Below, piece after piece: positions 1,089 through 17,656 of a stretch of DNA of 64,000 bases. A program made the translations under genes and the position numbers. The notes under the pieces were generated by a model. That model did not search any database, was not told the DNA's origin, and was given only the letters and a program-made list of their open reading frames with translations. Origin of the DNA: Microbulbifer sp. VAAF005 (GTDB lineage Bacteria > Pseudomonadota > Gammaproteobacteria > Pseudomonadales > Cellvibrionaceae); the NCBI RefSeq assembly GCF_030012985.1, contig NZ_CP120233.1, positions 4,769,001-4,833,000 on the forward strand, read 5' to 3'. The stretch's first letter is position 1. Every line of letters starts with the position of its first letter.

Positions 1089-4000
1089 ATGCGCAGCTCA
1101 GCTTATAATCATTCACGGCTTTTGGTGTTTCAAAATAATGCCAGGCAGCTGTTGCAATACTTGTTTGTCTCATTGGTATGTGTTTCGGCATTTACGTACG
1201 CTGAAGTGGCAGTGGATGAGGATGTTTCTCCCTGGCAGCTTTCTATCGTTGGTGCCAGCACCGGTGATGTGATTCTAAGTGGTGATGATGCGGCATTAAG
1301 CCTAGGAATTTCAGAAATTTGTGTAGCTGAAAACCAGGTTTCCGAAGAGTTTTCCTCCAGTTCTAGTGAAGATCTCTCCTCGCTTGGGTTTCATAGCTTT
1401 GGTAGTGAAGCTCTATCGTTACGCAATGAGCGCGCCACTGTAACTGCCCAAACTGATCAAGTCCTGCTGGCCCCAACGGTGCTCAGCGATTCAGATGAAA
1501 TTACTCTCAGCGCCCTCATTAATTCATCAACGGACGCTGGAGCCGGTACTGATTCACTCACTATCTATCTGACTGATTCTGAATATGTTGGTTATGGAGT
1601 CCAGTATCAAGGCGATGGTTCAACCGGCGTATGGGCTCTGGTTCAATTTACAGATGCCGAGAGTCAATCCAATTTAGCTCAGGTGGCTGCAACTGATAAT
1701 CATCCAACAACTGGACAAACGGTTACTTTAAATCGTTCTGGCGATACGTTGACGGTTACTGTAGGAGGAAGTGATATTGGTCTTACCTATACTGTAGGTG
1801 AGGGCATTGGTGATCTTTCTCGCTACGGCATACGTTCTACCTCACTTGGCGTTAGCGACAATAATTACCTAGATGACCTAACGCTGACTTTCTCTTCTAC
1901 TGCTACTTGTCCAGCCTTGGCTGATACAGGTGAGTGGGATGATGCCTACTCTCTGCACTTTGTATATCAAGAGCTGTTGCAGCAGGGAGAATTGATTGCA
2001 CGTTTATCCAGCCATACCAATAGTGGATCTGGCATTGCTGGTATCGCCCTACGAAATGGCACGGAAGCAACTGATAAAGCCATTGCATTGGTAGTGGACC
2101 CGTCTGATAACAGTATTGGACTTTTCACCCGAGATACGGATGATACAGTCAACACGCTAATTACCACCGGACAGACTGGCGCCTTGCCCCAGTGGTTAAG
2201 ATTAGTGCGTGATGGCGACACGATTACAGCTTATATCTCTACTGATGGTGCAAGTTGGACTCAGGTAGATAGTGTTTCGATCAGCTTCGACGATATTGTT
2301 AAGGCTGGAATTGCAGTGGCAGTTACTGGCAGTGAAGCGCAAACGCTGGAATACGATAACCTGAGTGTTTTAAATGAACTATCTGGCGATATTACTTCAG
2401 ATATAGAGCTTGCTGCACATCAAACCTATGTAGTGACAGGGGATGTGGATGTTAATAGTGGGGTGACTCTAACTATTAATGAAGGCGTGACAGTCCTATT
2501 TGAGGATTATTTCACCTTTGAGGTGAACGGCAATCTCACAGCTACTGGTGAAGCAGACGCGCCGGTAATATTTACTAGTGCACAGGCCTCGCCAGCTAAA
2601 GGTGATTGGTCTGGCATTGAAGCAAAAAGCGGTAGCGTAGTGAGCTTGGACTATGTGACTTTGGAATACGGAGATCGTGCTCTTTACGCAGCCCCTGGTA
2701 GCACCTTTAGTCTCAGCAATAGTACATTACAGAATTTTTCAAAGAGCGGTATTTATGCCTACAATTCTACTGGCGTAATTAGTAATAACACCATTCAGTA
2801 TGCAGATAATGCTGGACTGTATTTGCATCTCGTTGCAGATGTAACCGTCAGTAATAATATTGTCAGTGATAATAAATACGGTATTTACATTCATGGTGCT
2901 AGTGGTGGAGTTACCACCCCAACCATTACCGACAATCAAATTATCGATAATAGTAGTTACGGCTTTTATTTATATGGTGCAGGAAATGCCAGCTACGACC
3001 CCCTTCCAGTAATTAATGGAAACAGTATTTACAGTAACGGTACCTACAACGTATATACAAAAAACTATGGAAGTGGATCAACGACAAACGTTGATGCAAC
3101 AGGTAACTGGTGGGACGCCACCGATCCTGGTTCTATTTCTCCAACAATTTATGACCATACCGATACTGGTAGTGACTCCAATCCATTTATCGATAATGGT
3201 GGGTTCTTGGATGCTGAAGATGGAGTGGCAGTAGTCAGTCATTCATTGATAGGTACCCTAACAGAAGATACTACTTTGCTTTCGGGCAATACCTACACCA
3301 TGTTAGGACACCTCTACGTTGGTTCAGGTACGGTACTAACTATAGAGCCAGGTGCGCGTATTGAGTCGGGTGGAGGCTATCGAATTGTTGTTGATGGAAC
3401 TCTAAAAGCCATAGGCACCAGTGAATCGCCAATTGTATTTACCAGTGATGAAGAGTCTGCATCCAGTGGTCAGTGGAAAGGTATTCGCGTTGACGAAGGC
3501 GGCTCGGTAGAACTGGACTATGTGACGTTGGAGTATGGAGAGTATGGTCTTTATGCGCAGTCAGGTAGTAGCTTTAGTTTGAGCAACAGTGTTGTGCAAT
3601 ATATTGAGGAAGATGGTGTTTATGCCTATAACGCCAGCGGCTCAATAATTAACAATACTATTCAGTATGCTGAAAATTCTGGGGTATACCTATACGGTGT
3701 AGCAGATGTCACCGTCAGTGATAACGTAGTTATTGATAACAAATACGGGTTTTACATTAAGGGCTATAGCGGTGCTGCTACCACCCCAACGATCACGGGT
3801 AACACCGTTACCGGTAGCAGTAGCTACGGCTTCTATTTGTATGGGGTAAAGGACGCAGGCTACGATCCACAGCCTACGATTACGGGCAACAGCATTTACA
3901 GTAACAACAGTTACGATTTATATACCAACTATTACGAAAGTGGTGTGCTTACCGTTAATGCCACGGGCAACTGGTGGAACACCACGGATCCAGGAGATAT

Positions 4001-4385
4001 TGGTCCAGAGGTTTACGATTATAACGACAGTACCTCTTATCGTCCGATAGTAGATTTCAGCGGTTTTCTGGATGCGGAAGACGGTAGTGCAGTAATCACG
4101 AATGGCTTAAGTGGTTATTTAACAGAAGATACCACCTTGGTGGCGGGTACAACTTACACCTTCGAGAGCCACGTACATGTGCAGAGTGGAGTAACTTTGA
4201 CGATAGAACCCGGCGCTCGTATTGAAGTGGGGGAAGGTTTCGTCTCAAGGTTTATGGCACTTTGGATGCACAGGGCACCAGCGATAGCCCGATTGTATTC
4301 ACCAGTGATGAGAGCGCACCCGCTGCCGGAGATTGGTATGGCATCGTGGCACAAAGTGGCGGCACGGTGGATTTGGATTATGTAA
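1089..4385 (+). CDS. Giant secreted right-handed beta-helix protein, N-terminal part (frameshifted at about 4242)
   Basis: The start is ATG 1089, seven bases after GGGAAGG; upstream in-frame GTG 1047 and ATG 1083 fit the RBS less well. A long signal peptide (hydrophobic LLQYLFVSLVCVSAFTYA) indicates Sec export. Residues about 130-430 hold two beta-sandwich modules in the style of laminin-G/concanavalin lectins (for example SDEITLSALINSS and DTITAYISTDGASW). From residue about 430 onward come parallel beta-helix rungs (PbH1/NosD style) with NNTIQYA, VTVSDN, TPTITGN and TGNWWN turns, arranged in 287-residue units. The frame is lost after EVGEGF at about 4242: compared with sister repeats one base is missing. 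Adding a G gives GFGLKVYGTLDAQ and joins this frame to the one that runs to 9985, making one protein of about 2,965 residues. The last 48 or so residues encoded here (to 4385) are out-of-frame nonsense. Confidence 0.8.
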   Translation: MRSSAYNHSRLLVFQNNARQLLQYLFVSLVCVSAFTYAEVAVDEDVSPWQLSIVGASTGDVILSGDDAALSLGISEICVAENQVSEEFSSSSSEDLSSLGFHSFGSEALSLRNERATVTAQTDQVLLAPTVLSDSDEITLSALINSSTDAGAGTDSLTIYLTDSEYVGYGVQYQGDGSTGVWALVQFTDAESQSNLAQVAATDNHPTTGQTVTLNRSGDTLTVTVGGSDIGLTYTVGEGIGDLSRYGIRSTSLGVSDNNYLDDLTLTFSSTATCPALADTGEWDDAYSLHFVYQELLQQGELIARLSSHTNSGSGIAGIALRNGTEATDKAIALVVDPSDNSIGLFTRDTDDTVNTLITTGQTGALPQWLRLVRDGDTITAYISTDGASWTQVDSVSISFDDIVKAGIAVAVTGSEAQTLEYDNLSVLNELSGDITSDIELAAHQTYVVTGDVDVNSGVTLTINEGVTVLFEDYFTFEVNGNLTATGEADAPVIFTSAQASPAKGDWSGIEAKSGSVVSLDYVTLEYGDRALYAAPGSTFSLSNSTLQNFSKSGIYAYNSTGVISNNTIQYADNAGLYLHLVADVTVSNNIVSDNKYGIYIHGASGGVTTPTITDNQIIDNSSYGFYLYGAGNASYDPLPVINGNSIYSNGTYNVYTKNYGSGSTTNVDATGNWWDATDPGSISPTIYDHTDTGSDSNPFIDNGGFLDAEDGVAVVSHSLIGTLTEDTTLLSGNTYTMLGHLYVGSGTVLTIEPGARIESGGGYRIVVDGTLKAIGTSESPIVFTSDEESASSGQWKGIRVDEGGSVELDYVTLEYGEYGLYAQSGSSFSLSNSVVQYIEEDGVYAYNASGSIINNTIQYAENSGVYLYGVADVTVSDNVVIDNKYGFYIKGYSGAATTPTITGNTVTGSSSYGFYLYGVKDAGYDPQPTITGNSIYSNNSYDLYTNYYESGVLTVNATGNWWNTTDPGDIGPEVYDYNDSTSYRPIVDFSGFLDAEDGSAVITNGLSGYLTEDTTLVAGTTYTFESHVHVQSGVTLTIEPGARIEVGEGFVSRFMALWMHRAPAIARLYSPVMRAHPLPEIGMASWHKVAARWIWIM

Positions 4386-7300
4386 CAATAGAGTACGGGG
4401 ATTACGGTCTTTATGCTGCCTCGGGCAGTACCTTTAGTCTCAGCAATAGTACCTTGCAGCACTTTGATGGGAACGGTGTTTATGCCTATAACGCTAGTGG
4501 CTCAATTAATAACACGACTATTCAATATGCAGGTAATGCTGGGGTATACCTATATGGTGTAGCGGATGTCACGGTCAGTGATAACTCAGTAATCGATAAC
4601 AAATATGGATTTTATATTAAGGGCTATAGCGGTACTGTTACCACCCCAACGATCACGGGTAATACCGTTACTGGTAGTAGTAGCTACGGCTTCTATTTGT
4701 ATGGGGTAAAGGACGCAGGCTACGATCCACAGCCTACGATTACGGGCAACAGCATTTACAGTAACAACAGTTACGATTTATATACCAACTATTACGAAAG
4801 TGGTGTGCTTACCGTTAATGCCACGGGCAACTGGTGGAACACCACGGATCCAGGAGATATTGGTCCAGAGGTTTACGATTATAACGACAGTACCTCTTAT
4901 CGTCCGATAGTAGATTTCAGCGGTTTTCTGGATGCCGAAGATGGTAGTGCAGTGATCGACAATGGCCTGATTGGCTACCTAACCGAAGATACCACTCTGT
5001 TAGCAGACACGACTTACACCTTAGTGAGTTCGCTGCACGTAAAAAGTGGTGTGACCTTGACGATCGAGCCGGGTGCGCGTATAGAAGTGGGTGGACGATT
5101 TAGCCTCAAGGTTTACGGTACCTTAGATGCACAGGGCACCAGTGATAATCCGATTGTATTCACCAGTGATGAAAGTACACCTAGTGTCGGAGACTGGTTT
5201 GGCATCGTGGCGCAAAGTGGCGGCACGGTAAATTTGGATTATGTAACAATAGAGTACGGGGATTACGGTCTTTATGCTGCCTCAGGCAGCACCTTTAGTC
5301 TCAATAATAGTACCTTGCAGCACTTTGATGAAAGTGGTGTTTATGCCTATAACGCTAGTGGCTCAGTAAGTAATAGCACCATTCAGTATGCTGAAAATGC
5401 AGGGGTATACCTATACGGTGTAGCGGATGTCACCGTCAGTGACAACGCAGTTATCGATAACAAATATGGATTTTATATTAAGGGCTATAGCGGTACTGCT
5501 ACCACCCCAACGATCACGGGTAATACCGTTACTGGTAGTAGTAGCTACGGCTTCTATTTGTATGGGGTAAAGGACGCAGGCTACGATCCACAGCCTACGA
5601 TTACGGGCAACAGCATTTACAGTAACAGTAGTTACGATTTATATACCAACTATTACGAAAGCGGTGTGCTTACCGTTAATGCCACGGGCAACTGGTGGAA
5701 CACCACGGATCCAGGAGATATTGGTCCAGAGGTCTACGATTATAACGACAGTACCTCTTATCGTCCGATAGTAGATTTCAGCGGTTTTCTGGATGCCGAA
5801 GACGGTAGTGCAGTGATCGACAATGGCCTGATTGGCTACCTAACCGAAGATACCACTCTGTTAGCAGACACGACTTATACCTTAGTGAGTTCGCTGCACG
5901 TAAAAAGTGGTGTGACCTTGACGATCGAGCCGGGTGCACGCATAGAAGTGGGTGGACGATTTAGCCTCAAGGTTTACGGTACCTTAGATGCACAGGGCAC
6001 GAGTGATAGCCCGATTGTATTCACCAGTGATGAGAGCGCACCCGCTGCCGGAGATTGGTATGGCATCGTGGCGCAAAGTGGCGGCACGGTGAATTTGGAT
6101 TATGTAACAATAGAGTACGGGGATTACGGTCTTTATGCTGCCTCAGGCAGCATCTTTAGTCTCGATAATAGTACCTTGCAGCGTTTTGATGAGAGCGGTG
6201 TTTATGCCTATAACGCTAGTGGCTCAATTAGTAACAGTACCATTCAATATGCGAATGAATATGGGGTGAATCTGATCGGTACTGCGGATGTCACCGTCAG
6301 TGGCAATATGATCATGAATAATCGTGTCGGCATTCGTATTTCAGGGTTCAGCAGTGGGGTTACCACTCCAGTTATTACTGGCAATACCATTGCTGGTAAT
6401 AGCAGCTACGGCTTTTATTTGTATGGAAGGAGGGACGCAGACTACGATCCGCAACCCGTGATCACTGGTAACAGCATTCATAGTAATAGTGGTTACGATA
6501 TATTCACTGATTATTACGAAAGTGGGGCGCTCACTGTCAATGCCACGGGCAACTGGTGGAACACCACGGATCCAGGAGATATTGGTCCAGAGGTCTACGA
6601 TTATAACGACAGTACCTCTTATCGTCCGATAGTAGATTTCAGCGGTTTTCTGGATGCCGAAGACGGTAGTGCAGTGATCGACAATGGCCTGATTGGCTAC
6701 CTAACCGAAGATACCACTCTGTTAGCAGACACGACTTATACCTTAGTGAGTTCGCTGCACGTAAAAAGTGGTGTGACCTTGACGATCGAGCCGGGTGCAC
6801 GCATAGAAGTGGGTGGACGATTTAGCCTCAAGGTTTACGGTACCTTAGATGCACAGGGCACGAGTGATAGCCCGATTGTATTCACCAGTGATGAGAGCGC
6901 ACCCGCTGCCGGAGATTGGTATGGCATCGTGGCGCAAAGTGGCGGCACGGTGAATTTGGATTATGTAACAATAGAGTACGGGGATTACGGTCTTTATGCT
7001 GCCTCAGGCAGCATCTTTAGTCTCGATAATAGTACCTTGCAGCGTTTTGATGAGAGCGGTGTTTATGCCTATAACGCTAGTGGCTCAATTAGTAACAGTA
7101 CCATTCAATATGCGAATGAATATGGGGTGAATCTGATCGGTACTGCGGATGTCACCGTCAGTGGCAATATGATCATGAATAATCTTGTCGGCATTCGTAT
7201 TTCAGGGTTCAGCAGTGGGGTTACCACTCCAGTTATTACTGGCAATACCATTGCTGGTAATAGCAGCTACGGCTTTTATTTGTATGGAAGGAGGGACGCA

Positions 7301-8380
7301 GACTACGATCCGCAACCCGTGATCACTGGTAACAGCATTCATAGTAATAGTGGTTACGATATATTCACTGATTATTACGAAAGTGGGGCGCTCACTGTCA
7401 ATGCCACGGGTAATTGGTGGAATACTACGGATACGGAATCGATTGAAGCAGAAATCATAGATTACGCTACCAGTTCCTCCAGCGCCAACTATAAGCCGAT
7501 CGTGGATTACAGTGGCTATTTAAATAGAGCTAATGGAAGTTCAGTATATGATCACTACCTCCGCTTCGATATCGACACCGATACGAGTTTGGTCGCAGGT
7601 TCCTATATTGTTGTTGACAATATAAACGTAAATAGTGGTGTGAGTTTAACCCTAGAAGCAGGAGCAGTATTGGTATTCCCTGCTGGTCACTCACTAACAG
7701 TAGAGGGAGATCTGGTAGTTAGTGGTTCCAGCTCCCAGCCGGTACTATTCACCAGTGAGGCCCAATATCCTGCGGCAGGTGATTGGCAGGGTATCGTCGT
7801 AGCAAGTGGTGGCAGTGTCAGTATTGATAATGCTTACATCCAATATGCAGAAACTGCAGTTTCTGCGACTTCACCCTCTGCGTTCAGTGTTACCAACAGC
7901 ATTATTACTGACTTTAGCGAAAGCGGAATCAGTGTTAACAATCTTGCTGGTGGCACTATTGCCAATAACTTAATCCAAAATACGGATTACACAGGTATAG
8001 GGATAGCCCTGGATACTGCATCGTCAGCAGTAACTGACAATATTGTTACTGGCTTGAATTACGGTGCATATATTACCGGGGCCTCTTCACCGAGCTTAAC
8101 GGGTAATAGTTTTATCGATAATAATTATGGTATTTACCTGAATGGTTCGGGCAGTGATGCAACCAATCCCACCCCCACGATTACCGGCAATGATCTCTAT
8201 GGTAATACCAACGGCAGCTTGTACCTTAATAACTATGGTAGTAGCTCGGCGCTGGTGTTGAATGTTACTGGCAACTGGTGGGGCAGTGCTTTACCAGAGT
8301 GGGGTGTAGATATTATCGGGGTTGATTCGCCAGAGACTGTCGTAGATCACAGTAATGCCCTTGCTGCAGAGAGCCGCGTA
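2386..8380 (+). repeat. Seven tandem 861-bp coding repeats (287 residues each) in the giant gene
   Basis: Using the GFLDAEDG turn as marker, units begin at 3201, 4062, 4922, 5783, 6644 and 7514, with a first divergent unit from about 2386. Spacing is 861 bp except 860 across the frameshift and 870 for the sixth unit. The stretch 5682-6550 recurs at 6543-7411 with only one mismatch I can find (G at 6324, T at 7185), so the fifth and sixth units are a very recent duplication or are being homogenised by gene conversion. Outer units (first, seventh) are the most diverged. Confidence 0.9.
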
Positions 8381-9985
8381 ATAACATCTAACTTAAATGG
8401 GAATTACGAATATTTCTCCCCGAATAGTGATGGCAACCAGGATACATTAGCCATTACTGCCACCTTGAGTTCAAGTAGCACTTGGAGTCTGGAAATCAGT
8501 AATAAATCCGGAACTGTTGTGAATACTTTCTCTGGAACTGGTACAGCTATTAATATCGATTGGGATGGTACTGACAGTGGCAGTACCGTATTGAATGATG
8601 GTCGTTACTATTTATTCTTGAAGGTAACTGATGCGGAGAATACCAGTTATCGCGCGGGTGCTATTTGGGTAGAGCTGGATAATACCGCCCCTATAGCATT
8701 AATGAACAATGTTAATGATGGCGATACTTTATCAACTGGGACCACGACACTGGAGATTGAAGGTAGTGCTATCGACAATTTCTTCGTTGACTACTCCGTG
8801 GATTACCAATTGAGCGGTGATATCGATAACTGGGTAAGTCTTAAGTATTCAACATCAGAGATCAGTGAAAGCACCTTGGCTGAGTGGGTACTTAACTCCG
8901 TTGATGGTACAGTTGAGGCGCCGGCCAGTGGTGACTATCAAATACGTTTGATTGCCACTGATCGGGCTGGCAATATCACCACTATTATTCGCACAATCAC
9001 CCTTGATCTACTCAGTATTACCAATGTCAGCCGCAATCAAACCACAGTGAATCCGATTGCCGATGAAAGCCTGATAATCAGCTTTGACTTGTCTGCCGGC
9101 GCTACCGTTACGTTGGATATTAAAGACGAGCAAACTGAAGAGCTGGTTCGCAGTGTGGTGGAAACCTTTGATAGTGCGGGTAGCTATTCCCTGAGTTGGG
9201 ATGGCAAGGATGACGAGGGTAATTATGTTCCGGAAGAAGCATATACCTACTTCCTGACTGCAGTGAGTGGCAGTGTGGAAGGGGTGTATGTTATTGAAGA
9301 TGGTGGAAGTACCAGCGATATCTTAATGGGAAGCATGGATACCACCATGAATGCGGTACAAAACGACTTTATGAAAACTGAAGTTACGCCCACGGCGAAT
9401 GTGCGTGTCTATATGGAGGTCACGCCAGATGGGGGAGATACTCATATTGTCTATGATAATGTCCCCATGGAGGCCGGTACCCACTATATGACTTGGGATG
9501 GTCGCACCGCTGATGGCGTACTTACTACTGGGTCTTTTTACACCTATGTGCCAGCACCTGAAGTTCTGCCCACCAACGTGGTAATTATTGACGGCATAAA
9601 CCCAAGTATCAGCGGCACACTGGACGCACCCAATATCGAAGTTAAATCCGATCCTTATTTGATGTACCACAGCTACGATCAAATCTCGAAAGTAGCTTAC
9701 TTGTTGGATCAGGACTCCTACGTAACCTTCAAACTGTTACCGCCGGATATCGGTGACCCGACAGATGCCGGAGCGATCACCTTGATCGATAACCAGCTGC
9801 AAGCCGCTAATGACAGCGATGGTGCAGTAGCCACTCACGAGGTGGAGTGGACCGGTTATGAAGAGAGCGATGGCAACGCGATTATGGTCTCGGATGAAGG
9901 TGTGTACAGTTTCTGGATAGAAGCGACTTCGGCAACTACCGGAGCCAGTACCACTTACTACGGCGCATTGCAGCTGTATCAATAA
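4262..9985 (+). CDS. Giant secreted beta-helix protein, C-terminal part with FlgD-like Ig domains
   Basis: This is the continuation of the 1089 gene in the next frame; the TTG at 4262 is only the first formal start and there is no RBS, so it is not an independent gene. Residues 1 to about 1,360 carry the remaining beta-helix units (LTEDTTLLADTTYTL, TIEPGARIEVG, DYVTIEYGDYGLYAASGS, TGNWWNTTDPGDIGPEVYD). Three or more FlgD-type Ig modules follow, each ending in a WDG motif: IDWDGTDSGS, LSWDGKDDEG and MTWDGRTADG. There is no LPXTG, autotransporter barrel or obvious type I secretion repeat, so export beyond the periplasm is unexplained. The FlgD-Ig end resembles the separate gene at 10960, which suggests a functional link. 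A beta-helix with lectin-like and Ig modules suggests a surface or matrix adhesin or polysaccharide-binding scaffold; this is inference. Confidence 0.8.
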   Translation: MDAQGTSDSPIVFTSDESAPAAGDWYGIVAQSGGTVDLDYVTIEYGDYGLYAASGSTFSLSNSTLQHFDGNGVYAYNASGSINNTTIQYAGNAGVYLYGVADVTVSDNSVIDNKYGFYIKGYSGTVTTPTITGNTVTGSSSYGFYLYGVKDAGYDPQPTITGNSIYSNNSYDLYTNYYESGVLTVNATGNWWNTTDPGDIGPEVYDYNDSTSYRPIVDFSGFLDAEDGSAVIDNGLIGYLTEDTTLLADTTYTLVSSLHVKSGVTLTIEPGARIEVGGRFSLKVYGTLDAQGTSDNPIVFTSDESTPSVGDWFGIVAQSGGTVNLDYVTIEYGDYGLYAASGSTFSLNNSTLQHFDESGVYAYNASGSVSNSTIQYAENAGVYLYGVADVTVSDNAVIDNKYGFYIKGYSGTATTPTITGNTVTGSSSYGFYLYGVKDAGYDPQPTITGNSIYSNSSYDLYTNYYESGVLTVNATGNWWNTTDPGDIGPEVYDYNDSTSYRPIVDFSGFLDAEDGSAVIDNGLIGYLTEDTTLLADTTYTLVSSLHVKSGVTLTIEPGARIEVGGRFSLKVYGTLDAQGTSDSPIVFTSDESAPAAGDWYGIVAQSGGTVNLDYVTIEYGDYGLYAASGSIFSLDNSTLQRFDESGVYAYNASGSISNSTIQYANEYGVNLIGTADVTVSGNMIMNNRVGIRISGFSSGVTTPVITGNTIAGNSSYGFYLYGRRDADYDPQPVITGNSIHSNSGYDIFTDYYESGALTVNATGNWWNTTDPGDIGPEVYDYNDSTSYRPIVDFSGFLDAEDGSAVIDNGLIGYLTEDTTLLADTTYTLVSSLHVKSGVTLTIEPGARIEVGGRFSLKVYGTLDAQGTSDSPIVFTSDESAPAAGDWYGIVAQSGGTVNLDYVTIEYGDYGLYAASGSIFSLDNSTLQRFDESGVYAYNASGSISNSTIQYANEYGVNLIGTADVTVSGNMIMNNLVGIRISGFSSGVTTPVITGNTIAGNSSYGFYLYGRRDADYDPQPVITGNSIHSNSGYDIFTDYYESGALTVNATGNWWNTTDTESIEAEIIDYATSSSSANYKPIVDYSGYLNRANGSSVYDHYLRFDIDTDTSLVAGSYIVVDNINVNSGVSLTLEAGAVLVFPAGHSLTVEGDLVVSGSSSQPVLFTSEAQYPAAGDWQGIVVASGGSVSIDNAYIQYAETAVSATSPSAFSVTNSIITDFSESGISVNNLAGGTIANNLIQNTDYTGIGIALDTASSAVTDNIVTGLNYGAYITGASSPSLTGNSFIDNNYGIYLNGSGSDATNPTPTITGNDLYGNTNGSLYLNNYGSSSALVLNVTGNWWGSALPEWGVDIIGVDSPETVVDHSNALAAESRVITSNLNGNYEYFSPNSDGNQDTLAITATLSSSSTWSLEISNKSGTVVNTFSGTGTAINIDWDGTDSGSTVLNDGRYYLFLKVTDAENTSYRAGAIWVELDNTAPIALMNNVNDGDTLSTGTTTLEIEGSAIDNFFVDYSVDYQLSGDIDNWVSLKYSTSEISESTLAEWVLNSVDGTVEAPASGDYQIRLIATDRAGNITTIIRTITLDLLSITNVSRNQTTVNPIADESLIISFDLSAGATVTLDIKDEQTEELVRSVVETFDSAGSYSLSWDGKDDEGNYVPEEAYTYFLTAVSGSVEGVYVIEDGGSTSDILMGSMDTTMNAVQNDFMKTEVTPTANVRVYMEVTPDGGDTHIVYDNVPMEAGTHYMTWDGRTADGVLTTGSFYTYVPAPEVLPTNVVIIDGINPSISGTLDAPNIEVKSDPYLMYHSYDQISKVAYLLDQDSYVTFKLLPPDIGDPTDAGAITLIDNQLQAANDSDGAVATHEVEWTGYEESDGNAIMVSDEGVYSFWIEATSATTGASTTYYGALQLYQ

Positions 9986-10029: not shown

Positions 10030-10072
10030 CTGACAAGTCGGCGTTAAATCAAAAAACAACCAAGAGAACAAC

Positions 10073-10963
10073 GTGAAAGCCTTACTAAAGTCCAACGTGG
10101 TCATTGTGACTTGTGCATTGCTATGGTGTGCCTGCGTTTACGCAGAAGAGGATATTGCTTACCTAGCCCCGGGCAAACAGGGGTACTGGCAGGTATGGGT
10201 AATGGATACCCAGGGCCAACAACACCGGCAACTCACCCACTCAGCCTTCGATAAAAATAGCCTTAGCTGGTTTCCCGATGGCAAGCGTTTGCTGGTAAAT
10301 GGCAGCCAGGGTGAACTGCATGAAGTGGGGCTGGCCAACGCCAAAGAATTACCAATAACAATGCCGCTAAAAGGTTTTATTGATGCGAGCCTAGCGCCGG
10401 ATGGAAAATCTGTAGTCTTTTCTCTCAGTACCTCCGACAGTGTTGACGATAACAACTTGTGGCGATTGCCATTGGATGGCAGCGACCAGCAAAAGCTCAC
10501 CAATATGCGTCATATGCAGCACGAACCCCGCTGGCATCCAGATGGCAAGACCGTGTATTTCTTGTCCGGGGATGGTGGCGAAGCCCACGATATCTGGGCG
10601 CTGGATTTAGTTTCCGGAAGCAAGCGGCAACTGACTTTTAATAGTCTTTACAATTTTGATGTTGTCGCCGACACAAAAGGCCGATTGGTATTTTCCAGTA
10701 ACCGTGCCGGCAACTACGACCTGTGGTTGCGCGAGAGCAACGGAAAACTCAAACAGCTCACCACCGATGCCGCACTGGATGCCGCTCCCAGCTGGTCCCC
10801 GAAAGGTGATGCCGTTGTATTTCAGTCTACCCGCGACGGCGCCTATAACCTGTGGAGGTTAACACTTGAGAGTGGTGAGTTAACCCAGTTGACCCAATTT
10901 ACCAGCGGTGCCCGTAAACCCCTATGGCGGCCGCAGTCCGCGCAAGGCAAGTCAGTACTATGA
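10073..10963 (+). CDS. Secreted TolB-like/PD40 beta-propeller protein
   Basis: 296 residues from a GTG start, with a signal peptide (VVIVTCALLWCACVYA). Residues 30-285 are about six PD40/WD40-like blades with the repeated pattern S-x-x-P-D-G-K followed by x-x-x-W (LSWFPDGKRLL, ASLAPDGKSVVF, PRWHPDGKTVYF, VFSSNRAGNYDLWL, PSWSPKGDAVVFQSTRDG). This is the blade signature of TolB and related periplasmic propellers, which act as protein-protein docking surfaces. It lacks the N-terminal TolB alpha/beta domain, so it is not TolB itself. It lies 87 bp after the giant gene and its TGA overlaps the ATG of the next gene (ATGA), so it is translationally coupled to the FlgD-Ig-like protein. A role as periplasmic chaperone or scaffold for the large secreted proteins is inference. 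Confidence 0.75.
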   Translation: MKALLKSNVVIVTCALLWCACVYAEEDIAYLAPGKQGYWQVWVMDTQGQQHRQLTHSAFDKNSLSWFPDGKRLLVNGSQGELHEVGLANAKELPITMPLKGFIDASLAPDGKSVVFSLSTSDSVDDNNLWRLPLDGSDQQKLTNMRHMQHEPRWHPDGKTVYFLSGDGGEAHDIWALDLVSGSKRQLTFNSLYNFDVVADTKGRLVFSSNRAGNYDLWLRESNGKLKQLTTDAALDAAPSWSPKGDAVVFQSTRDGAYNLWRLTLESGELTQLTQFTSGARKPLWRPQSAQGKSVL

Positions 10964-12096
10964 ATAAGATGTTAAAAAAAATCGGCCTCACCGCAGTATT
11001 GGCCGCTCTGGTTACGCCCTTGGCTGGCTACGGACTGTCTATTTCCGGGGTCAATATTGAATCCCGCTCGTTTGTCCCCGCCCAAGGGGAACAGTTCGCA
11101 CTGAATTACCATATTGATACGCAAGCCAATGTCACGATTAATATCTACGACGCTCGTGACCTGCTGATCAAAACGGAATACCGCGAACAGCTGGCGGCGG
11201 GCGATCACCAGTGGCAGTGGGACGGTACCGACCAGCAGGGGCGCCCGGTACCCGCAGAGGCTTATCACTACACCATCAGTGCAACAGCCGGTGAGCAAAC
11301 TGCCGAGTACGACCTGACTGATATTACCGGTGGTGAAAGTGTTGCGGTCAACGATCTGAGTTGGAATGCGGAGCAGGGCAGTGTGGATTACACCCTGCCG
11401 CAAATGGCCCGCGTCGCAATTCGGGTGGGATTAAAAAATAACGGCCCACTGCTGAATAATATTATTGACTGGGTGCCGCGTGGGTCTGGCCAACAAACAG
11501 AAGCCTGGGATGGGGAGGATGCCTCCGGTGCCCTGAATTTAAAGGGCCACCCAGCACTGGAATTAATTCTCAATGCCTTCGCCTTGCCCCGCAATACCAT
11601 TCTGGTGAGCGGGGATAAATTATCTTCTGACGCCCGTTTTGTGCAGGATATGCCGTGGGGACAAAGCCCACGACAAAAAAAGAAATCCCATCGCCCGCGT
11701 ATTCACGCCCCCGCGCAACGGGACGCATTGAGCCGGGGAGATTTCCCGCTAGAAATTTCACTGGTGGGGGACTACCGCAAAAATAGCGAAGGCACCCCGA
11801 TAGTTAGCGGCACTGTACCGGTACGCATTAATGTACAGCCGGAGCATATCGCGCAGCTGGCCTCAAAAAGGTTTGAGCCGGTGTACTTTGTCGACGGACA
11901 GTACATTTATGAGAACGAGGTGGGTTACTTCCCCACCACTTATCGCTGGGACAGCCGCAACCACAACCCTGGCGAGCACTATCTCACGGTAAATTTACGC
12001 GGCTACCTGGGCAACTTTGGTATGGCCACCCTAAAAGTGGTTATTGAAAAACCCCAAACTGAAGGCTCAGCGAACACTCTCGCTCATAAAGATTAA
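10960..12096 (+). CDS. Exported protein with FlgD-like Ig domains
   Basis: The start is ATG 10960, overlapping the previous stop as ATGA; an upstream in-frame ATG at 10924 lies inside the previous gene. 378 residues with a signal peptide (KIGLTAVLAALVTPLAGYG). Residues 30-110 are a FlgD-type Ig module (QANVTINIYDARDLL, HQWQWDGTDQQGRPVPAEAY); residues 125-200 are a second, ending in EAWDGEDASG. The following part (FALPRNTILVSGDK) parallels PEVLPTNVVIIDG in the C-terminus of the giant protein, so the two share domain order and are probably paralogous in part. A basic stretch RQKKKSHRPR near residue 240 is a likely exposed linker. The C-terminal 130 residues are unassigned. Its function is unknown; partner or regulator of the giant protein is inference. 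Confidence 0.65.
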   Translation: MNKMLKKIGLTAVLAALVTPLAGYGLSISGVNIESRSFVPAQGEQFALNYHIDTQANVTINIYDARDLLIKTEYREQLAAGDHQWQWDGTDQQGRPVPAEAYHYTISATAGEQTAEYDLTDITGGESVAVNDLSWNAEQGSVDYTLPQMARVAIRVGLKNNGPLLNNIIDWVPRGSGQQTEAWDGEDASGALNLKGHPALELILNAFALPRNTILVSGDKLSSDARFVQDMPWGQSPRQKKKSHRPRIHAPAQRDALSRGDFPLEISLVGDYRKNSEGTPIVSGTVPVRINVQPEHIAQLASKRFEPVYFVDGQYIYENEVGYFPTTYRWDSRNHNPGEHYLTVNLRGYLGNFGMATLKVVIEKPQTEGSANTLAHKD

Positions 12097-12133
12097 CTCT
12101 AATGCGAATTAGATATTCAGAAGGATGTGAACC

Positions 12134-12643
12134 ATGAAGCGAACGACGGAATTAATCCAGATTCTATCCCTGGCAATCATTGCGCTTTTTGCCAGTACTG
12201 GAGCTTACGCAGCCAAGCCGAGCGCCCATATCCAGCAGGTCTCCCAAGCTGAAGCCCAAGCGGCGGTTGAACAAAAGGATTACAAGCGGGCGCGAGCCTT
12301 GTACAACCGCCTGCTGCGGCAGCAACCGCAAAATTACCCGGCCATGATTGAATTGGCCCAGCTGGAAAAGAAGTTAGGCAAGTACGAAAAAGCCAAGAAG
12401 CACGCTTCAGTGGTATTGAAACAAAATAGAACCCATCGCCAAGCCCTGCAATTATTGGCCCAAATCGCCATTCAACAGCAGCAGTGGGCAGAAGCGGAAA
12501 CCTATTTCAGCCGCCTAATAAAAAACCACCCGGAGCACGGCCACGCCTATCTTGGCTTGGCCCAGGCTTACCAGGCACAGGGCAAGGATGAGCAGGAACA
12601 AACCGCTTTGAAAGATTATCGCCTGTGGCGTGCCGCACAATAA
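12134..12643 (+). CDS. Periplasmic TPR-repeat protein
   Basis: 169 residues with a signal peptide cleaved near residue 26 (AIIALFASTGAYA). Residues 40-160 hold three to four tetratricopeptide repeats, recognisable by A-x-x-x-L-x-x-P-x-x (YKRARALYNRLLRQQPQNYP, YEKAKKHASVVLKQNRTHR, WAEAETYFSRLIKNHPEHG). TPR domains mediate protein-protein contact. The gene lies 37 bp after the FlgD-Ig gene with AGAAGGATG as RBS and 66 bp before the RHS gene, so it fits an operon that ends in the RHS protein. It may be an adaptor or chaperone for the large exported proteins, which is inference from position only. Confidence 0.75.
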   Translation: MKRTTELIQILSLAIIALFASTGAYAAKPSAHIQQVSQAEAQAAVEQKDYKRARALYNRLLRQQPQNYPAMIELAQLEKKLGKYEKAKKHASVVLKQNRTHRQALQLLAQIAIQQQQWAEAETYFSRLIKNHPEHGHAYLGLAQAYQAQGKDEQEQTALKDYRLWRAAQ

Positions 12644-12709
12644 TATCGTCCGATTTGTACTGAATAAGAATCACACTCCTGGCCAGTAGTTGGGGGATAG
12701 GGAATACCC

Positions 12710-13036
12710 ATGAGCAGTTTTGCCAACAAAATACTAAAAACACCGCTAAAAGCCCTTGCTGGATTTAGCAAAACCTTGGAAGGCGCCCGGCGCGTCTGCG
12801 CAAGCGCGAACTCGATTCGTCCGCCCCTAGCTTCAGCGATGCTGGCTTTAACCCTGGCTATTGCTGCCAGCCCTACCCAGGCGCACACCTTTGGTGGTGG
12901 TACCGGCTCTAACAGTGATGATAGCGGTGGCGGTGATAGTGGTGTTGGGGGAGGCTGCCCCAAAGAGTCCGTTGAGGGGGGACGGTCGTACTTTTCAGCG
13001 GTCAGGAACGCCATAAAGAAACTGATATGGTGGTGA
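12710..13036 (+). CDS. RHS protein, N-terminal export segment (frameshifted at a G6 run)
   Basis: This is the true 5' end of the RHS gene. Its product starts with a long basic N-region and a hydrophobic core (ASAMLALTLAIAASPTQA) giving Sec cleavage near residue 58, then a Gly/Ser/Asp-rich linker (HTFGGGTGSNSDDSGGGDSG). After VEGG the frame breaks at the six-G run 12976-12981. In the alternative frame the sequence reads VVLFSGQERHKETDMVVKGS, the expected RHS entry motif (normally V-D-x-x-x-G, leading into the N-terminal RHS domain). Inserting one G joins this segment to the 13027 frame. The final residues SYFSAVRNAIKKLIWW are therefore an artefact of the shift. With both frameshifts bridged the whole protein is about 1,467 residues. 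Confidence 0.75.
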   Translation: MSSFANKILKTPLKALAGFSKTLEGARRVCASANSIRPPLASAMLALTLAIAASPTQAHTFGGGTGSNSDDSGGGDSGVGGGCPKESVEGGRSYFSAVRNAIKKLIWW

Positions 13037-14154
13037 AAGGCAGCTACCCGATTCAAATTATACGTAAATACAATAACCAGTCAGATTACGATAGTGCCCT
13101 GGGGTATGGCTGGGCTTTCGATCACGACTACCGCTTGTATGAGTATCCCGATGATAAAGTAATAATCCGCTATTGTGCCGGGCACCGCGCTGAGTTTGTT
13201 TACAGTGGCGGTGCCTATGTGAGCGATGTAGCTGGGTTGCGTGGAACCCTGAGTGAAGATAGCGATGGTACCTACACCTTTGCCCACAATAATGGACGTA
13301 AAGATTACTACGATGCTGAAGGCCGACTGACAGCACGGGAAAATAAAAACGGTCAGCGCCTGGAGTTTACTTACAGCAGTGAACGCTTTCCTATCGTCGG
13401 TACTTCTCTTTATTCCGTCGATCCCTCTAAGCCGATGACGGTGGCCTATAGCTACCAGTTGCAAAAAATTGAAGAGCGCCTGGCAGATGGCAGCCTGAGT
13501 GGCAACTACGTTAGCTTCAGTTACGATAGCGACACCGGCCGTGTTACCCAAGCGGTGGACCACACCGGCCGCACTATTGTTTATAGCCACGATACGCTGG
13601 ATGATAGTGAAGGTAATGCCCTAACTTCAGGCAACCTGATTAAGGTCACTGGCCTGGAAGGGCTGGTATCCACTTATAAATACGAAGATAGCAACGACGG
13701 CCACAATCTAACCTACTTCCAGGTGGGTGAAAATGCTACGCCCTATGAGGAAACCTACGATTCTGAAGATCGGGTAATCAAAGAGGTCTATGGTAATCTA
13801 ATCTTTGAGTTTGACTATGTCACCGAGGGTTATGAAACCGAAGTCACTACCACTATTACCGATGCTGATGGTAATAACCCCTATACCACTACCGAGCGCT
13901 ACGTATTTAACGAAGATGGCCGCACAGTGGAGTACGAGGACCAAGCGGGCTATCTCACGGTAAAAACCCGCGATGCCAACAACAATGTTACTCGTGAAGA
14001 GCGCTATGGCCTAGCTGATGACAATGGCGATCGTAACCTAGCGCGCGCTATCGATTACACCTACAACACTGATAACCGTCGTTTGAGTAAAGCTGTTAAC
14101 CTGGCTAGTGGTGAAATCATTACTACCAGTTGGACTTATGAGGGGGGTGGGTAG
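13027..14154 (+). CDS. RHS/YD-repeat protein, middle segment
   Basis: 375 codons from a formal GTG/ATG inside the correct frame (which is open from about 12982). The product begins with the conserved RHS N-terminal domain: YPIQIIRKYNNQSDY, then LGYGWAFDHDYRL. YD repeats then start (FSYDSDTGRVTQAVDHTGRTIVYSHD, TYKYEDSNDGHNLTYF, YEETYDSEDRVIKEVYG). YD repeats build the hollow beta-cocoon that encloses the C-terminal toxin tip. The frame ends at TSWTYEGGG plus stop after a second six-G run at 14142-14147; one extra G gives EGGWVASKEVVSSTDTATVF and leads directly into the next segment. This segment has no RBS of its own. Confidence 0.8.
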   Translation: MVVKGSYPIQIIRKYNNQSDYDSALGYGWAFDHDYRLYEYPDDKVIIRYCAGHRAEFVYSGGAYVSDVAGLRGTLSEDSDGTYTFAHNNGRKDYYDAEGRLTARENKNGQRLEFTYSSERFPIVGTSLYSVDPSKPMTVAYSYQLQKIEERLADGSLSGNYVSFSYDSDTGRVTQAVDHTGRTIVYSHDTLDDSEGNALTSGNLIKVTGLEGLVSTYKYEDSNDGHNLTYFQVGENATPYEETYDSEDRVIKEVYGNLIFEFDYVTEGYETEVTTTITDADGNNPYTTTERYVFNEDGRTVEYEDQAGYLTVKTRDANNNVTREERYGLADDNGDRNLARAIDYTYNTDNRRLSKAVNLASGEIITTSWTYEGGG

Positions 14155-14192
14155 CCAGTAAAGAGGTAGTTTCCTCGACTGATACTGCTACA

Positions 14193-17111
14193 GTGTTCCG
14201 AACCGAATATACCTTTAATTACGATAGCGATGGCAACCCTGAGACTCTGGCCAGCACCAAAAAATTAAAGGCCGACGGAAGCTATCAAACTACTAGCTAT
14301 AGCTACAATGCCCGCAATCAGTTCACTACTACCACTTATGCCGATGGTAGCCAGTATGTGCTGGAGTACGAGAGTGACAGCCTCTATCCCACCCGTGTGT
14401 ATTGGAAAGACCAAAACGGCAATACCCTGACCACCGGCGAGCAGACCTTTACCTATGACCAAGCGGGTAACCGCCTGACCGCCACTGATGCCATGGGTAA
14501 CACTACTACCTACACTTATGATGATAAAAACCGCCCGGTTCAAGTAACCAATGCTCTGAGTGAGGAAACGCACTACACCTACGAAGACAATAATTTAGTA
14601 CAGGTGGAGTCTGGGCGCAGTACCGATAGTGTCAGCCAGGAGGTTACAGCCGGACAGATTATTCTACTGAATTACGACGGCAAAAACCGTATTACCAGTA
14701 TCGGGCGCCAAGACAGTGTTGGTGCTGAAGCTACCTACCAAAGTTATACCTATGACAGTTTGGGGCGACGCCTGAGTGTGAGCGATGCGCTGGGTAATGG
14801 CAGCAGCTATGGCTACGATCTACGCGGTAACCTGACCAGTTTCAGCGATGTCGATGACAATACTACCACCTACACCTACGATGCTTTGGGCAACCGTACC
14901 CAGGTTACTGATGTCAAAAACCGCGTAACCCTGTACAGCTACGATGAGATGCACCGCCTGGTACAAACCGAGAACCAGGCCCTGAGTCCGAGCTTGGTGA
15001 CCAGTTACAGCTATGATGCAGCTGATAACCTCCTCACAGTTACCGATCCAGAAAATAACACCACTACCTACACTTACGATCGTTTACGCCGCAAAACTGC
15101 CGAGCAGCGCCCGGGGGGAGCGGTAATTACCTACAGCTATGATGAACGCAATCGTCTGGCCAGTAAAACGGGGGCTCGTGGGCAGGTACTGCAATACACC
15201 TACGAGGACTGGGGTGGGCTGGCAGGTATTGAACATTTTGCCAGTGCTACGGATTACATCGGCAACAATGCCGAACGCACCCAGGGTTTTACATATAATA
15301 ATAACGCTCGACTCACACAGACTACTGACTCGGCTATCCAGGTTGGAGCGCTCTACACCCATAGCTACGATGCCCTCAACCGCCTGGAGCAAACTGCCAG
15401 TCACTATATACCGGGAGGTGACCGTACCCTAGCTTATAGCTACAACAGCAGGGGTAGCCTTAGTGGTATCAGCCTGGATAATACTGCTGAATCCGGTGGC
15501 ACTTTAGTCAGTCATATTTTTACCTACGACGACTATAGTCGCTTAAATAGCGCCACTTTGGCTGCCAATACCCATACGCTGAATTATGACAGTGCCGATC
15601 GCTGGACAGACGTCACTTATGCCTCTGGCGTCAGTCGTACCAACACCTACAACGATGATAACACCCTGGCCAGCGCGACTCTGGTAGATGCCAACAGTAC
15701 CACTCTTGAGGCGCTTAGCTACGCCTATGATGCGGTCAACAACATCGAGGGCTATACCGATAATGACGGCACCAAGGTATTTACCTATGACGGAATGGAC
15801 CGCCTTACAGGTGCTGATTACCCAGATGCCACCGGTCTTACAGACGAACAATTCGATTACGACGGGGTAGGCAATCGTGAGGACCCGAGCGACAGTACCG
15901 TCTACGAATATAACACTAACAATCAGCTGGTCAGCCAAAATAATGAGGCATTGATTCGCAGCTATGATGATGACGGTAATTTAACGTCCATTACCGGAGC
16001 AGAAAATAAAACCTTTACTTATGACCGAGAAAATCGCCTCGCTAGCTACACGGATGGCAGTACTTCGGCCGGTTACGGCTATGGTACAAGTGGTCGGCGC
16101 TTGTACAAAACTGTTGATGGCACCACCACCTGGTTTTTATGGGGTGGTACTCAAGTAATTGCGGAATTTATCGAGGCGGACGGCTCAGCTAGCCTAAGCA
16201 AGCGATATGATTACCTGCCAGGTGCATATGCACCGCTGCAAGTAACTGATAGCAACGGCACTTATGAAGTATTTAGTGACCACCTAGATACGCCCCGGGT
16301 GCTGGTTGATGCGACGGGTCAAGTAGTCTGGCGTAGTGTGCGTACTGCATTTGGTGAAACCACTGTTGATGAAGATGTCGATGGCGATGGAACGACGGTG
16401 GTGTTTAATGTGCGTTTTCCGGGGCAGTATTATGACTCGGAGAGTGGACTGCACTATAACTATTTCCGTGATTATGACCCAAGCATTGGTCGGTACATTC
16501 AGTCTGACCCTATTGGGTTAAGTGGCGGATTAAACACCTACGGATACGCACTCCAAAACCCTCTATCCTATATAGATTTACTTGGCTTAACAGCATGCAC
16601 TTGGGGCGATACAACATTTACATGTTCCTGTAAAACACGTACTCGTACAGCGCAGGAAAATTGTAGGGCTGCTGGTGGTATTCCATTATTTCCAGATCTG
16701 TTAAAGGATGATAAATCTGAAACTGAACCTGAAAGTTGCCCAGTTGATGGAAGTGATAGTCTCCAGTCATCTCCTGGTTCCCCTGATAATGATCCAGAAG
16801 ATGAGGGAGATGAGGGAGATGAGGGAGATGACAAGGACAAAACTGAAGTAACACAATCCCCAAAGCAAGCACCAAAGCAAGGAGAGCCAGACTCCATCCA
16901 TGAGCAATTAGATTCGGACGGAAATGTTCGCTCCAGAACATTTTATGATTCAAATGGAAGATCATTTAATCGTCAAGATTACGATCATAGTCATGGAGGC
17001 ATGCAACCTCATCAGCATTCCAGGGATTTTGATGCTAGTGGACGACCGACTACAAAAGAGGTCGTTGGGCCTGTCCCAGAAGGCTATGATAGTTCGGCTA
17101 CACCTCAGTAA
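14193..17111 (+). CDS. RHS protein, main YD-repeat shell, core motif and variable C-terminal tip
   Basis: 972 residues continue the same protein (frame open from about 14148). Roughly twenty YD repeats of the type Y-D-x-x-G-N-L/R-x-x-x-x-D (YDQAGNRLTATDAMGNTTTY, YDALGNRTQVTDVKNRV, YDRENRLASYTDG). The RHS-associated core follows (FPGQYYDSESGLHYNYFRDY, then DPSIGRYIQSDPIGLSGGLN and YALQNPLSYIDLLGL), which ends the shell. The last 180 or so residues are the variable tip: a short Cys-containing part, an acidic linker with DEGDEGDEGDDKD, and a terminal domain with FYDSNGRSFNRQDYDHSHGG and PHQHSRDFDASGRP. The H/D-rich pattern recalls small polymorphic-toxin domains, but I cannot name the activity. 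A probable immunity gene follows after 14 bp. Delivery is unclear: no VgrG, PAAR or T6SS gene lies nearby, and a Sec signal is present at the N-terminus. Confidence 0.85.
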   Translation: MFRTEYTFNYDSDGNPETLASTKKLKADGSYQTTSYSYNARNQFTTTTYADGSQYVLEYESDSLYPTRVYWKDQNGNTLTTGEQTFTYDQAGNRLTATDAMGNTTTYTYDDKNRPVQVTNALSEETHYTYEDNNLVQVESGRSTDSVSQEVTAGQIILLNYDGKNRITSIGRQDSVGAEATYQSYTYDSLGRRLSVSDALGNGSSYGYDLRGNLTSFSDVDDNTTTYTYDALGNRTQVTDVKNRVTLYSYDEMHRLVQTENQALSPSLVTSYSYDAADNLLTVTDPENNTTTYTYDRLRRKTAEQRPGGAVITYSYDERNRLASKTGARGQVLQYTYEDWGGLAGIEHFASATDYIGNNAERTQGFTYNNNARLTQTTDSAIQVGALYTHSYDALNRLEQTASHYIPGGDRTLAYSYNSRGSLSGISLDNTAESGGTLVSHIFTYDDYSRLNSATLAANTHTLNYDSADRWTDVTYASGVSRTNTYNDDNTLASATLVDANSTTLEALSYAYDAVNNIEGYTDNDGTKVFTYDGMDRLTGADYPDATGLTDEQFDYDGVGNREDPSDSTVYEYNTNNQLVSQNNEALIRSYDDDGNLTSITGAENKTFTYDRENRLASYTDGSTSAGYGYGTSGRRLYKTVDGTTTWFLWGGTQVIAEFIEADGSASLSKRYDYLPGAYAPLQVTDSNGTYEVFSDHLDTPRVLVDATGQVVWRSVRTAFGETTVDEDVDGDGTTVVFNVRFPGQYYDSESGLHYNYFRDYDPSIGRYIQSDPIGLSGGLNTYGYALQNPLSYIDLLGLTACTWGDTTFTCSCKTRTRTAQENCRAAGGIPLFPDLLKDDKSETEPESCPVDGSDSLQSSPGSPDNDPEDEGDEGDEGDDKDKTEVTQSPKQAPKQGEPDSIHEQLDSDGNVRSRTFYDSNGRSFNRQDYDHSHGGMQPHQHSRDFDASGRPTTKEVVGPVPEGYDSSATPQ

Positions 17112-17125
17112 AAGGATAAGAAATC

Positions 17126-17656
17126 ATGAGTTATTTTTCATTTGGAGAAATTTTCTTTGACTCGCCTGAACATGATGTTATTTCTGTCTCCTTTGAATTG
17201 GTTCAGTTAGCATTGAGTTCAAATTTATATGTTTTACTTGGATGCAATATACCTCAGAAAGTAGTATTTGAAATGTTAGATAAAGAAAGGCAGCTGTTTA
17301 ATGACTCAATGCCATTTTTGCTAACAGCGACACCATTGTCGGATGTGTCGGATGAACTGATTTCACCCTATGCCCTTGTTGAGGATGATGATAGTTGTCA
17401 GTCTTCTTCCCTATTCTCTGGAATTAATAAAATTCGGAGTTTTTTGGAAGGGGTGATAAAAGTTGCCGAAGTTGAAGCTGTAGATATTTATTTTAGTGAG
17501 GGCTACGCTGAAGAATTTAATGTGCAATCGGGTAAGCCAGATGAGGTGTATCAATATTTGTCAGGTGAGTGCGAAAAAAATGGAGATATGCCGCAAGTGA
17601 AGTTTACCCTCAAAGGGTTGCACAATCCAAACAAAAAACAAAAAGGACAGTCATAG
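17126..17656 (+). CDS. Candidate immunity protein for the RHS tip
   Basis: 176 residues, ATG preceded by AAGGATAAGA, 14 bp after the RHS stop. No signal peptide or membrane segment: a soluble acidic cytoplasmic protein (VEDDDSCQSS, ISVSFELVQLALSS, VKFTLKGLH). It matches no family I know. A small acidic gene directly behind an RHS toxin tip is the standard place for its immunity partner, so I call it by context. The last codons, KKQKGQS and stop, are built from a REP-like sequence (AAAAAGGACAGTCATAG) of the repeat family that fills the next 3 kb, so the original C-terminus may have been replaced by insertion. Confidence 0.55.
   Translation: MSYFSFGEIFFDSPEHDVISVSFELVQLALSSNLYVLLGCNIPQKVVFEMLDKERQLFNDSMPFLLTATPLSDVSDELISPYALVEDDDSCQSSSLFSGINKIRSFLEGVIKVAEVEAVDIYFSEGYAEEFNVQSGKPDEVYQYLSGECEKNGDMPQVKFTLKGLHNPNKKQKGQS

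Follow-up and report, generated by a model that had tools for sequence, protein, structure and literature searches.

What kind of structure is built by a gene set that places a giant beta-helix protein next to a signal-peptide-bearing RHS protein, and how such an RHS protein might leave the cell, are the questions raised by a locus at the left end of a 64,000-nucleotide stretch of the Microbulbifer sp. VAAF005 genome (NZ_CP120233.1, positions 4,769,001 to 4,833,000), hereafter the window, to which coordinates refer unless the genome contig is named. To our knowledge, the exit route of Rhs proteins with signal peptides from Gram-negative cells is not settled. In this regard, a gene set that is inherited with such a protein names candidate parts of the export route, and a redox pair co-inherited with a toxin-like protein in a cage would, provided that it functions, amount to a new way of controlling a toxin. 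The locus consists of six genes, C to H, encoding in turn the giant, a TolB-like beta-propeller, an immunoglobulin-type (FlgD-Ig) protein, a small tetratricopeptide repeat (TPR) protein, the RHS protein and a small protein, together with an adjoining pair, A and B (Table 1). Our reading is that these eight genes form a Sec-exported, surface-assembled Rhs polymorphic toxin system, in which we place about as much belief as doubt; that the genes are co-inherited and keep a fixed order is an observation.

An earlier note on this DNA had described a six-gene locus on one strand, and the open reading frame (ORF) coordinates bear this out, since C to H all lie on the + strand, in the order given and with short gaps, within 1047–17656, D and E overlapping through an ATGA. 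The order of the six genes stands as described, but the ChrB_C-rhodanese gene (A), its membrane partner (B) and a second copy of the cassette in the same genome had been missed. The single giant of ~2,965 residues and the uninterrupted RHS protein do not exist in this genome either: C is spread over two ORFs in different frames and G over three. Pfam and NCBIfam recover the expected domains (Beta_helix/NosD, FlgD_ig, CHU_C, PD40, TPR, DUF6531, RHS_repeat and Rhs_assc_core), the lectin-like assignment (DUF1349) falling below its cut-off, and the RHS repeats score 155 bits with PF05593, the RHS-associated core 81.6 bits with TIGR03696 (cut-off 32.5). Signal sequences are seen by eye at the starts of C, D, E, F and G. 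An AlphaFold2 model of E shows Ig-like beta-sandwich domains in series (mean predicted local distance difference test score 92.5). Overall, the earlier interpretation is partly supported, and the unit is real, conserved and larger than had been described.

Conservation of the unit was followed through E. Among 96 related genomes, E was matched at an E-value of 1e-3 in 14 and at full length (below 1e-30) in nine, namely G000 (this genome), G006, G010, G017, G044, G049, G051, G052 and G077; the other five matches cover only part of the Ig domain (50–87 residues, E-values 5.9e-5 to 3.9e-4). E has a 96% match in Microbulbifer sp. TRSA001. At an E-value of 1e-10, matches were found in only 6 of 369 genomes of a class-wide draw and 4 of 398 of a phylum draw, this genome included in both and G735 matching only partially, so the system is rare and patchy. 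Twenty-five loci with E were then available for reading: the window, the second copy (L028), G010, G044, G006, G017, G052, L041–L047, G174, G279, G051, G049 (two), G077, G142, G301, G388 and plasmids of Thiodictyon and Photobacterium. D adjoins E in 24 of them, the exception being G388. The RHS gene lies directly downstream of E on the same strand in 21 of 23 testable loci (G279 and G301 end before it could appear). In the Thiodictyon locus it lies ~9 kb upstream with insertion sequences in between, in G388 there is none within 10 kb of E, and on contig C10 of G049 it is split into two ORFs. The solitary FlgD-Ig relative of G388 (L062) has neither propeller nor redox pair alongside it.

The order giant, propeller, FlgD-Ig protein, small protein, signal-peptide RHS protein recurs, partly as a variant, across distant Gammaproteobacteria: it is found in Microbulbifer, Gilvimarinus, a Lysobacteraceae strain, Pseudomarimonas and Thiogranum, with the variant form in Photobacterium, and named carriers include Microbulbifer litoralis, Gilvimarinus algae, Lysobacteraceae bacterium 2PB and Pseudomarimonas arenosa. 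The idea that the genes belong together, which the earlier note had staked on their not lying apart in relatives, survives. Among the window, G010 and the second copy, the ratio of nonsynonymous to synonymous substitution rates (dN/dS) is 0.04–0.08 for D and 0.07–0.12 for F, and between the window and G010 alone it is 0.065 for E, 0.11 for A, 0.24 for B and 0.26 for H; by these ratios the cassette genes appear to be under purifying selection. Recurrence of the order across families and orders, taken with dN/dS values of 0.04–0.12 for D, E, F and A, amounts to more than chance.

Two forms of the cassette can be distinguished, G301 being assigned to neither. Form I, with a large C gene before D, comprises the window, L028, G010, G044, G006, G017, G052, L041–L047, G174 and, as far as it was read, G279. 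Form II has the order A-B-D-E-C'-F'-G and is found in G051, twice in G049, and in G077, G142 and Photobacterium. Position F is held by a small gene in 13 of the 15 Form I loci readable there, and TPR repeats are confirmed by Pfam in four loci (window, L042, L048/G017 and L060/G174); the small F' protein of Form II gave no Pfam match in the two scanned. C' is an FlgD-Ig protein of ~850–1,000 residues, with PKD domains in the one scanned, and is split in G049 C10 and Photobacterium. C, C' and E share a module at their C-termini, which hhalign shows to be homologous (E–C probability 99.7%, E-value 6e-26; C'–C 99.2%; E–C' 99.1%), which confirms the resemblance of E to the end of the giant that had been noted before. 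The N-terminal parts, on the other hand, differ among the five giants scanned, being beta-helix alone, beta-propeller plus beta-helix, or IPT/TIG plus beta-helix. Variable N-termini on a common C-terminus would be expected if a constant base bore a rod or a receptor-binding part.

The A-B pair adjoins the start of C, divergently in this genome and G010 and collinearly in G044, G052, L044 and G174; in G006 and G017 (contig ends L115 and L112, respectively) an open ORF bearing a signal segment comes after A-B at the contig end and is taken as the start of C. Sequence ends too early for A-B to be decided in L043, L045, L046, G279 and, for A only, L041. A carries ChrB_C and rhodanese domains behind a signal peptide, with a lipobox-like cysteine in 4 of 10 aligned proteins (by eye) and a rhodanese loop, YC[VIL]KDFRG, kept in all 10. 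B has four histidine columns that are at least 90% conserved, and its homologue in G077 matches Ferric_reduct at an E-value of 3e-6, just below the cut-off, with a weaker match in Photobacterium. We take the loop cysteine of A to be catalytic and the conserved histidines of B to be haem ligands of the haem-b reductase type. Across the 96 relatives, 45 genomes match A at 1e-3, mostly through the rhodanese domain, yet full-length A (below 1e-50; next best 2e-12 and partial) is far rarer, and B matches at 1e-3 in nine. Full-length A, B and E co-occur in exactly the same nine of the 96 genomes, which fall in five genera, and none of the three occurs in the other 87. For independent draws, the chance of such a coincidence is, by hand calculation, 1 in C(96,9), or ~8e-13, a figure that relatedness makes larger in truth. 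In single loci the pair is less complete, A being seen only as a 79-residue ORF in G049 C10 and as a 134-residue ORF in Photobacterium. Redox control is possibly part of the proposed Rhs toxin system.

A hydrophobic signal segment is seen by eye in 17 of 18 RHS N-termini, the exception being G049 C33, where the start is uncertain. The signal is followed in Form I by a Gly/Pro-rich stretch that often opens with an AHDFGG-like motif. Cysteines were counted over roughly the first 220 residues, setting aside those in or before the signal segment, in 19 N-termini (Photobacterium and G049 C33 among them; the first two window fragments joined; the second copy excluded for its frame break). There are two or four in 18 of the 19, of which one lies within or close to DUF6531, in Form I as part of a CG.R-type motif, and the remaining one or three in the linker. 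The repeat part is free of cysteine in 8 of 13 bodies read far enough. As a single control, an RHS protein that this genome encodes outside the cassettes (L126) shows, by eye, no signal segment, and its first 300 residues contain one cysteine. The even number suggests that disulfides may form near the cage entrance. The DUF6531 fragment of Form I was searched in eight carriers: in the six Form I genomes it matched strongly within the cassettes and nowhere else, the remaining RHS genes matching at an E-value of 2.6e-5 or worse.

In contrast to the conserved N-terminus and repeat body, the C-terminal tip and the gene behind it are exchanged between loci. In bins of 50 residues, the two copies in this genome are 42–90% identical as far as residue 800 of the third RHS fragment and 10–18% identical beyond it. 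In an all-against-all comparison of 18 tips only those of the window and G010 are alike (90%), with L031 and L042 sharing a 23-residue match. DUF4258 lies above its cut-off in the L042 tip (one of 10 scanned with Pfam); the window tip matches Ntox24 at an E-value of 0.054, below cut-off, and one other tip has unrelated matches, also below cut-off. Ten downstream genes scanned have no immunity domain above cut-off, one having Sel1 repeats. Behind the main RHS gene of G052 (L035) and G006 (L032) are arrays of short ORFs, each an RHS core plus a tip; such ORFs are the usual stock of spare tips.

That the RHS protein travels by Sec and not by a type VI secretion system (T6SS), as had been proposed from the absence of T6SS genes nearby, is supported, because its signal peptide is recognisable by eye, Pfam and NCBIfam find no PAAR, VgrG or SpvB match in the cassette, and 4 of 14 carriers lack the sheath gene VipB. 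The sheath gene is present in the other 10, this genome included (near 2.77 Mb), and missing from G051, G077, G142 and G174, three of which are at least 90% complete.

On these grounds the following scheme may be put forward. C, D, E, F and G would all cross the inner membrane by Sec. C, as a long rod built of beta-helix, IPT/TIG or other domains and ending in the common Ig-type module, would serve as surface stalk or receptor-binding part, and E, D and F (Ig chain, propeller and TPR protein) would put it together with the Rhs cage in the periplasm and the outer membrane; to this extent the other products may indeed be the display or assembly machinery that the earlier note proposed. The loaded complex would then cross the outer membrane by a general route, perhaps the type II secretion system (T2SS), and the tip would be passed into a neighbouring cell, H conferring self-protection. 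A and B would constitute a redox pair at the inner membrane and periplasm, through the rhodanese cysteine loop and the conserved histidines, and would most likely act on the N-terminal cysteines of the Rhs protein, setting disulfides before or during export. The fullest version of the scheme, a new route dedicated to Rhs toxins of Gram-negative bacteria in which a Sec-exported cage is mounted on an Ig/beta-helix surface rod by a free propeller and a TPR protein and is disulfide-gated from the membrane by the rhodanese/haem-b pair, such that cargo release is redox-gated, is offered tentatively, as a conjecture we think rather doubtful in its entirety.

Several observations weigh against the toxin-system reading. 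Toxicity, immunity, the outer-membrane step and the redox role are all things that we infer from sequence. Pfam places no family above cut-off in nine of the 10 tips scanned and finds no match at all in seven, NCBIfam on eight tips gives only the Rhs core, below cut-off, and H, which has no known domain, is confined among the 96 relatives to this genome and G010. Within the cassette no outer-membrane channel could be recognised; GspD is over its cut-off in 14 of 14 carriers and in 88 of the 96 relatives anyway, which says nothing specific, so that the T2SS is possible without being indicated by co-occurrence. F is missing from L044 and L045. L042, L047 and the second copy here lack an adjoining redox pair, G049 C11 has an orphan A-B pair that adjoins no cassette (L114, 8310–9967), this genome's own B has no Ferric_reduct match, and the ChrB protein of the Thiodictyon plasmid comes after an iron-type ABC transporter, an arrangement as compatible with metal handling as with thiol chemistry. 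As for the cysteines, the doubtful G049 C33 N-terminus has three, and 5 of the 13 bodies (G044, G006, G017, L044 and L045) have 4–8 more. Finally, neither of the two Form II genomes searched matched the Form I DUF6531 fragment strongly, so the RHS proteins are not one tight clade.

Alternatively, the Rhs protein might be no toxin but a surface adhesion or matrix protein, a teneurin-like YD cage, with C to F building the same structure and the tips acting as recognition or anchoring domains. The products do look extracytoplasmic with adhesin-type domains, and the scarcity of recognisable families among the tips and of immunity domains behind them speaks for this alternative; it is nonetheless unlikely, given that tips swapped together with a new small gene, and the spare tip arrays of G052 and G006, follow the pattern of polymorphic toxins, to which the DUF4258 tip of L042 may be added. 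Less likely again is a core function in redox chemistry or metal handling outside the cytoplasm, carried by the ChrB_C-rhodanese and ferric-reductase-like proteins or, in some lineages, by an iron-type ABC transporter; the Rhs cage and the Ig proteins would then make up an extracellular structure that handles electrons or metal. Full-length A and B accompany the cassette in nine of nine genomes, and the Thiodictyon arrangement is in line with it, but Pfam on C to G returns as metal-related matches only those of NosD-type beta-helices, which reflect the repeat, and the tips vary as toxins do. The least credible of these alternatives, one to which we assign hardly any weight, makes the RHS protein an ordinary T6SS effector and its neighbours unrelated passengers. 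This genome has T6SS sheath genes, as noted above; against this stand the signal peptide, the lack of PAAR and VgrG matches, the carriers without a sheath gene and a gene order that is kept across orders.

On two of the plasmids the surroundings of the genes are worth recording. On pTs485 of Candidatus Thiodictyon syntrophicum (L108) the FlgD-Ig and PD40 genes lie beside the transporter and ChrB-domain genes, with RHS and small genes upstream, among them a MafI-family immunity gene. On the plasmid of Photobacterium sp. GJ3 (L109; Vibrionales), a 1.7-Mb replicon, a Form II cassette is followed by a second, partial RHS gene; this occurrence suggests horizontal spread.

There remains the state of the cassette in VAAF005 itself. 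The frame changes of C and G lie at ~4.2, 13.0 and 14.1 kb, by eye within or beside short G-runs, whereas in the relative G010 C is a single ORF of 3,327 residues and the RHS gene lies in a frame that is open over 1,478 residues; between the two, the length of H varies too, close to its end. As a control, 17.8 kb of the window (46.1–63.9 kb) aligned to G010 at 86% identity has a net frame change in 2 of 16 mechanically called ORFs, both near gene ends, one by a stop and one by a start plus a cut at the alignment edge. The cassette is thus richer in interior breaks, as either decay or a local mis-assembly of the two near-identical copies would make it. The second copy (L028, ~572–592 kb, i.e. 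~0.58 Mb) is frame-broken as well: its TolB-like gene is 99%, its TPR gene 98% and its second RHS fragment 98% identical to the window, while its FlgD-Ig frame is broken, its N-terminal RHS part is in another frame and its RHS tip is different. The DNA behind both copies (window 17674–19959; L028 ~6.2–8.1 kb) is 93–100% alike, with internal repeats.

It may be, then, that both copies in this strain, with their frame changes, are decayed or mis-assembled. An account in which both are decaying pseudogene clusters, the system being dead here and working in relatives, is compatible with a toxin system and has a real though somewhat less than even claim. It draws on the three interior changes of the window copy and those in RHS and FlgD-Ig of the second, compared with the control stretch, and on the transposase and group II introns adjoining the cassette. 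Against it, changes in or next to G-runs in copies that are nearly identical in parts are a setting prone to assembly error, and the unbroken genes keep low dN/dS. Of the mobile elements, the ORF at 18857–19858 (−) has a borderline IS200-like transposase match, just below cut-off, and is a possible agent of the duplication of the cassette. A group II intron (RF01999, RF00029) lies at 23549–25366 with a reverse transcriptase/maturase ORF at 23987–25285, and a second, shorter maturase ORF at 20671–21357. Away from the cassette, at 29925–30812, the window encodes another PD40-propeller protein, of 295 residues.

Table 1. Genes of the cassette and its adjoining pair (window coordinates unless the genome contig is named).
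Feature	Position	Strand	Remarks
Gene A, C-terminal 192 aa only	1–576	−	Signal peptide, ChrB_C domain, rhodanese domain; gene extends past left window edge
Gene A, full, 338 aa	4768563–4769576 of genome contig		Divergent from C
Gene B, membrane protein, partner of A	4767844–4768530 of genome contig		Just outside window
Gene C, first frame	1047–4385	+	Signal peptide, DUF1349/lectin-like region (below cut-off), first beta-helix repeats; true start probably ATG at 1083 or 1089
Gene C, second frame	4262–9985	+	Beta-helix repeats, CHU_C/FlgD_ig Ig domains, last ~340 aa conserved
Gene D, TolB-like (PD40) beta-propeller, 296 aa	10073–10963	+	Signal peptide
Gene E, FlgD-Ig protein, 378 aa	10960–12096	+	Signal peptide; starts with ATG at 10960
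Gene F, small TPR protein, 169 aa	12134–12643	+	Signal peptide
Gene G (RHS), first frame	12710–13036	+	Signal peptide, Gly-rich linker, one N-terminal Cys
Gene G (RHS), second frame	13027–14154	+	DUF6531, first YD repeats; carries Cys of 'CG.R'-type region
Gene G (RHS), third frame	14193–17111	+	YD repeats, Rhs_assc_core, variable C-terminal tip from ~16506
Gene H, small gene behind tip, candidate immunity gene	17126–17656	+	No known domain

How the set relates to known systems can now be considered. PADLOC models of known anti-phage defence gave no matches at an E-value of 0.001 for eight proteins (C and the first RHS fragment not among them), and a literature search by title and start of abstract, with most subscription journals and preprints outside its scope, returned no description of this gene set, in agreement with the earlier impression that it is not a described system. 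D is not a full TolB of the Tol-Pal system, since TIGR02800 scores 120.5 bits against a cut-off of 343 and only profile positions 156–417 are matched.

In Tc toxins (TcA with TcB/TcC) a beta-propeller is joined with an Rhs cage that encloses the variable toxin end. Here the propeller is a separate TolB-like protein, and no SpvB or TcA match is present in the cassette; the SpvB/TcB N-terminal domains are replaced by DUF6531 (window, L039), and identity with a Tc toxin is rejected. CdiA/CdiB, the type V secretion pair of contact-dependent inhibition, likewise combine a very long surface rod with a toxin tip and an immunity gene, but in the present case rod and toxin-like protein are separate. 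Two-partner secretion was discarded, there being no match to its secretion domain in the window fragments or five other giants and neither a CdiB-like partner nor another transporter among the window's cassette genes scanned. With type IX secretion the giants have in common Ig-type domains (CHU_C, FlgD_ig) near the C-terminus of large secreted proteins, yet CHU_C is internal here (37 bits, cut-off 27) and TIGR04131 reaches 25.5 bits, below its cut-off of 35, so that a type IX substrate is not indicated. T6SS Rhs effectors also pair an Rhs cage with a variable tip; the cassette protein has a signal peptide in place of PAAR/VgrG, and some carriers are without the sheath gene.

The nearest relatives are the Rhs polymorphic toxins surveyed by Zhang et al. 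(2012; PMC3482391), a table of which puts RHS repeats among proteins on the Sec/T2SS default route. TolB and FlgD are absent from the portion of the survey text examined, and the routes named in that portion include no dedicated multi-gene set for export or display that comes with a redox pair. What the locus shares with these toxins is the YD repeats, the Rhs_assc_core, the variable C-terminal tip and the small gene behind it.

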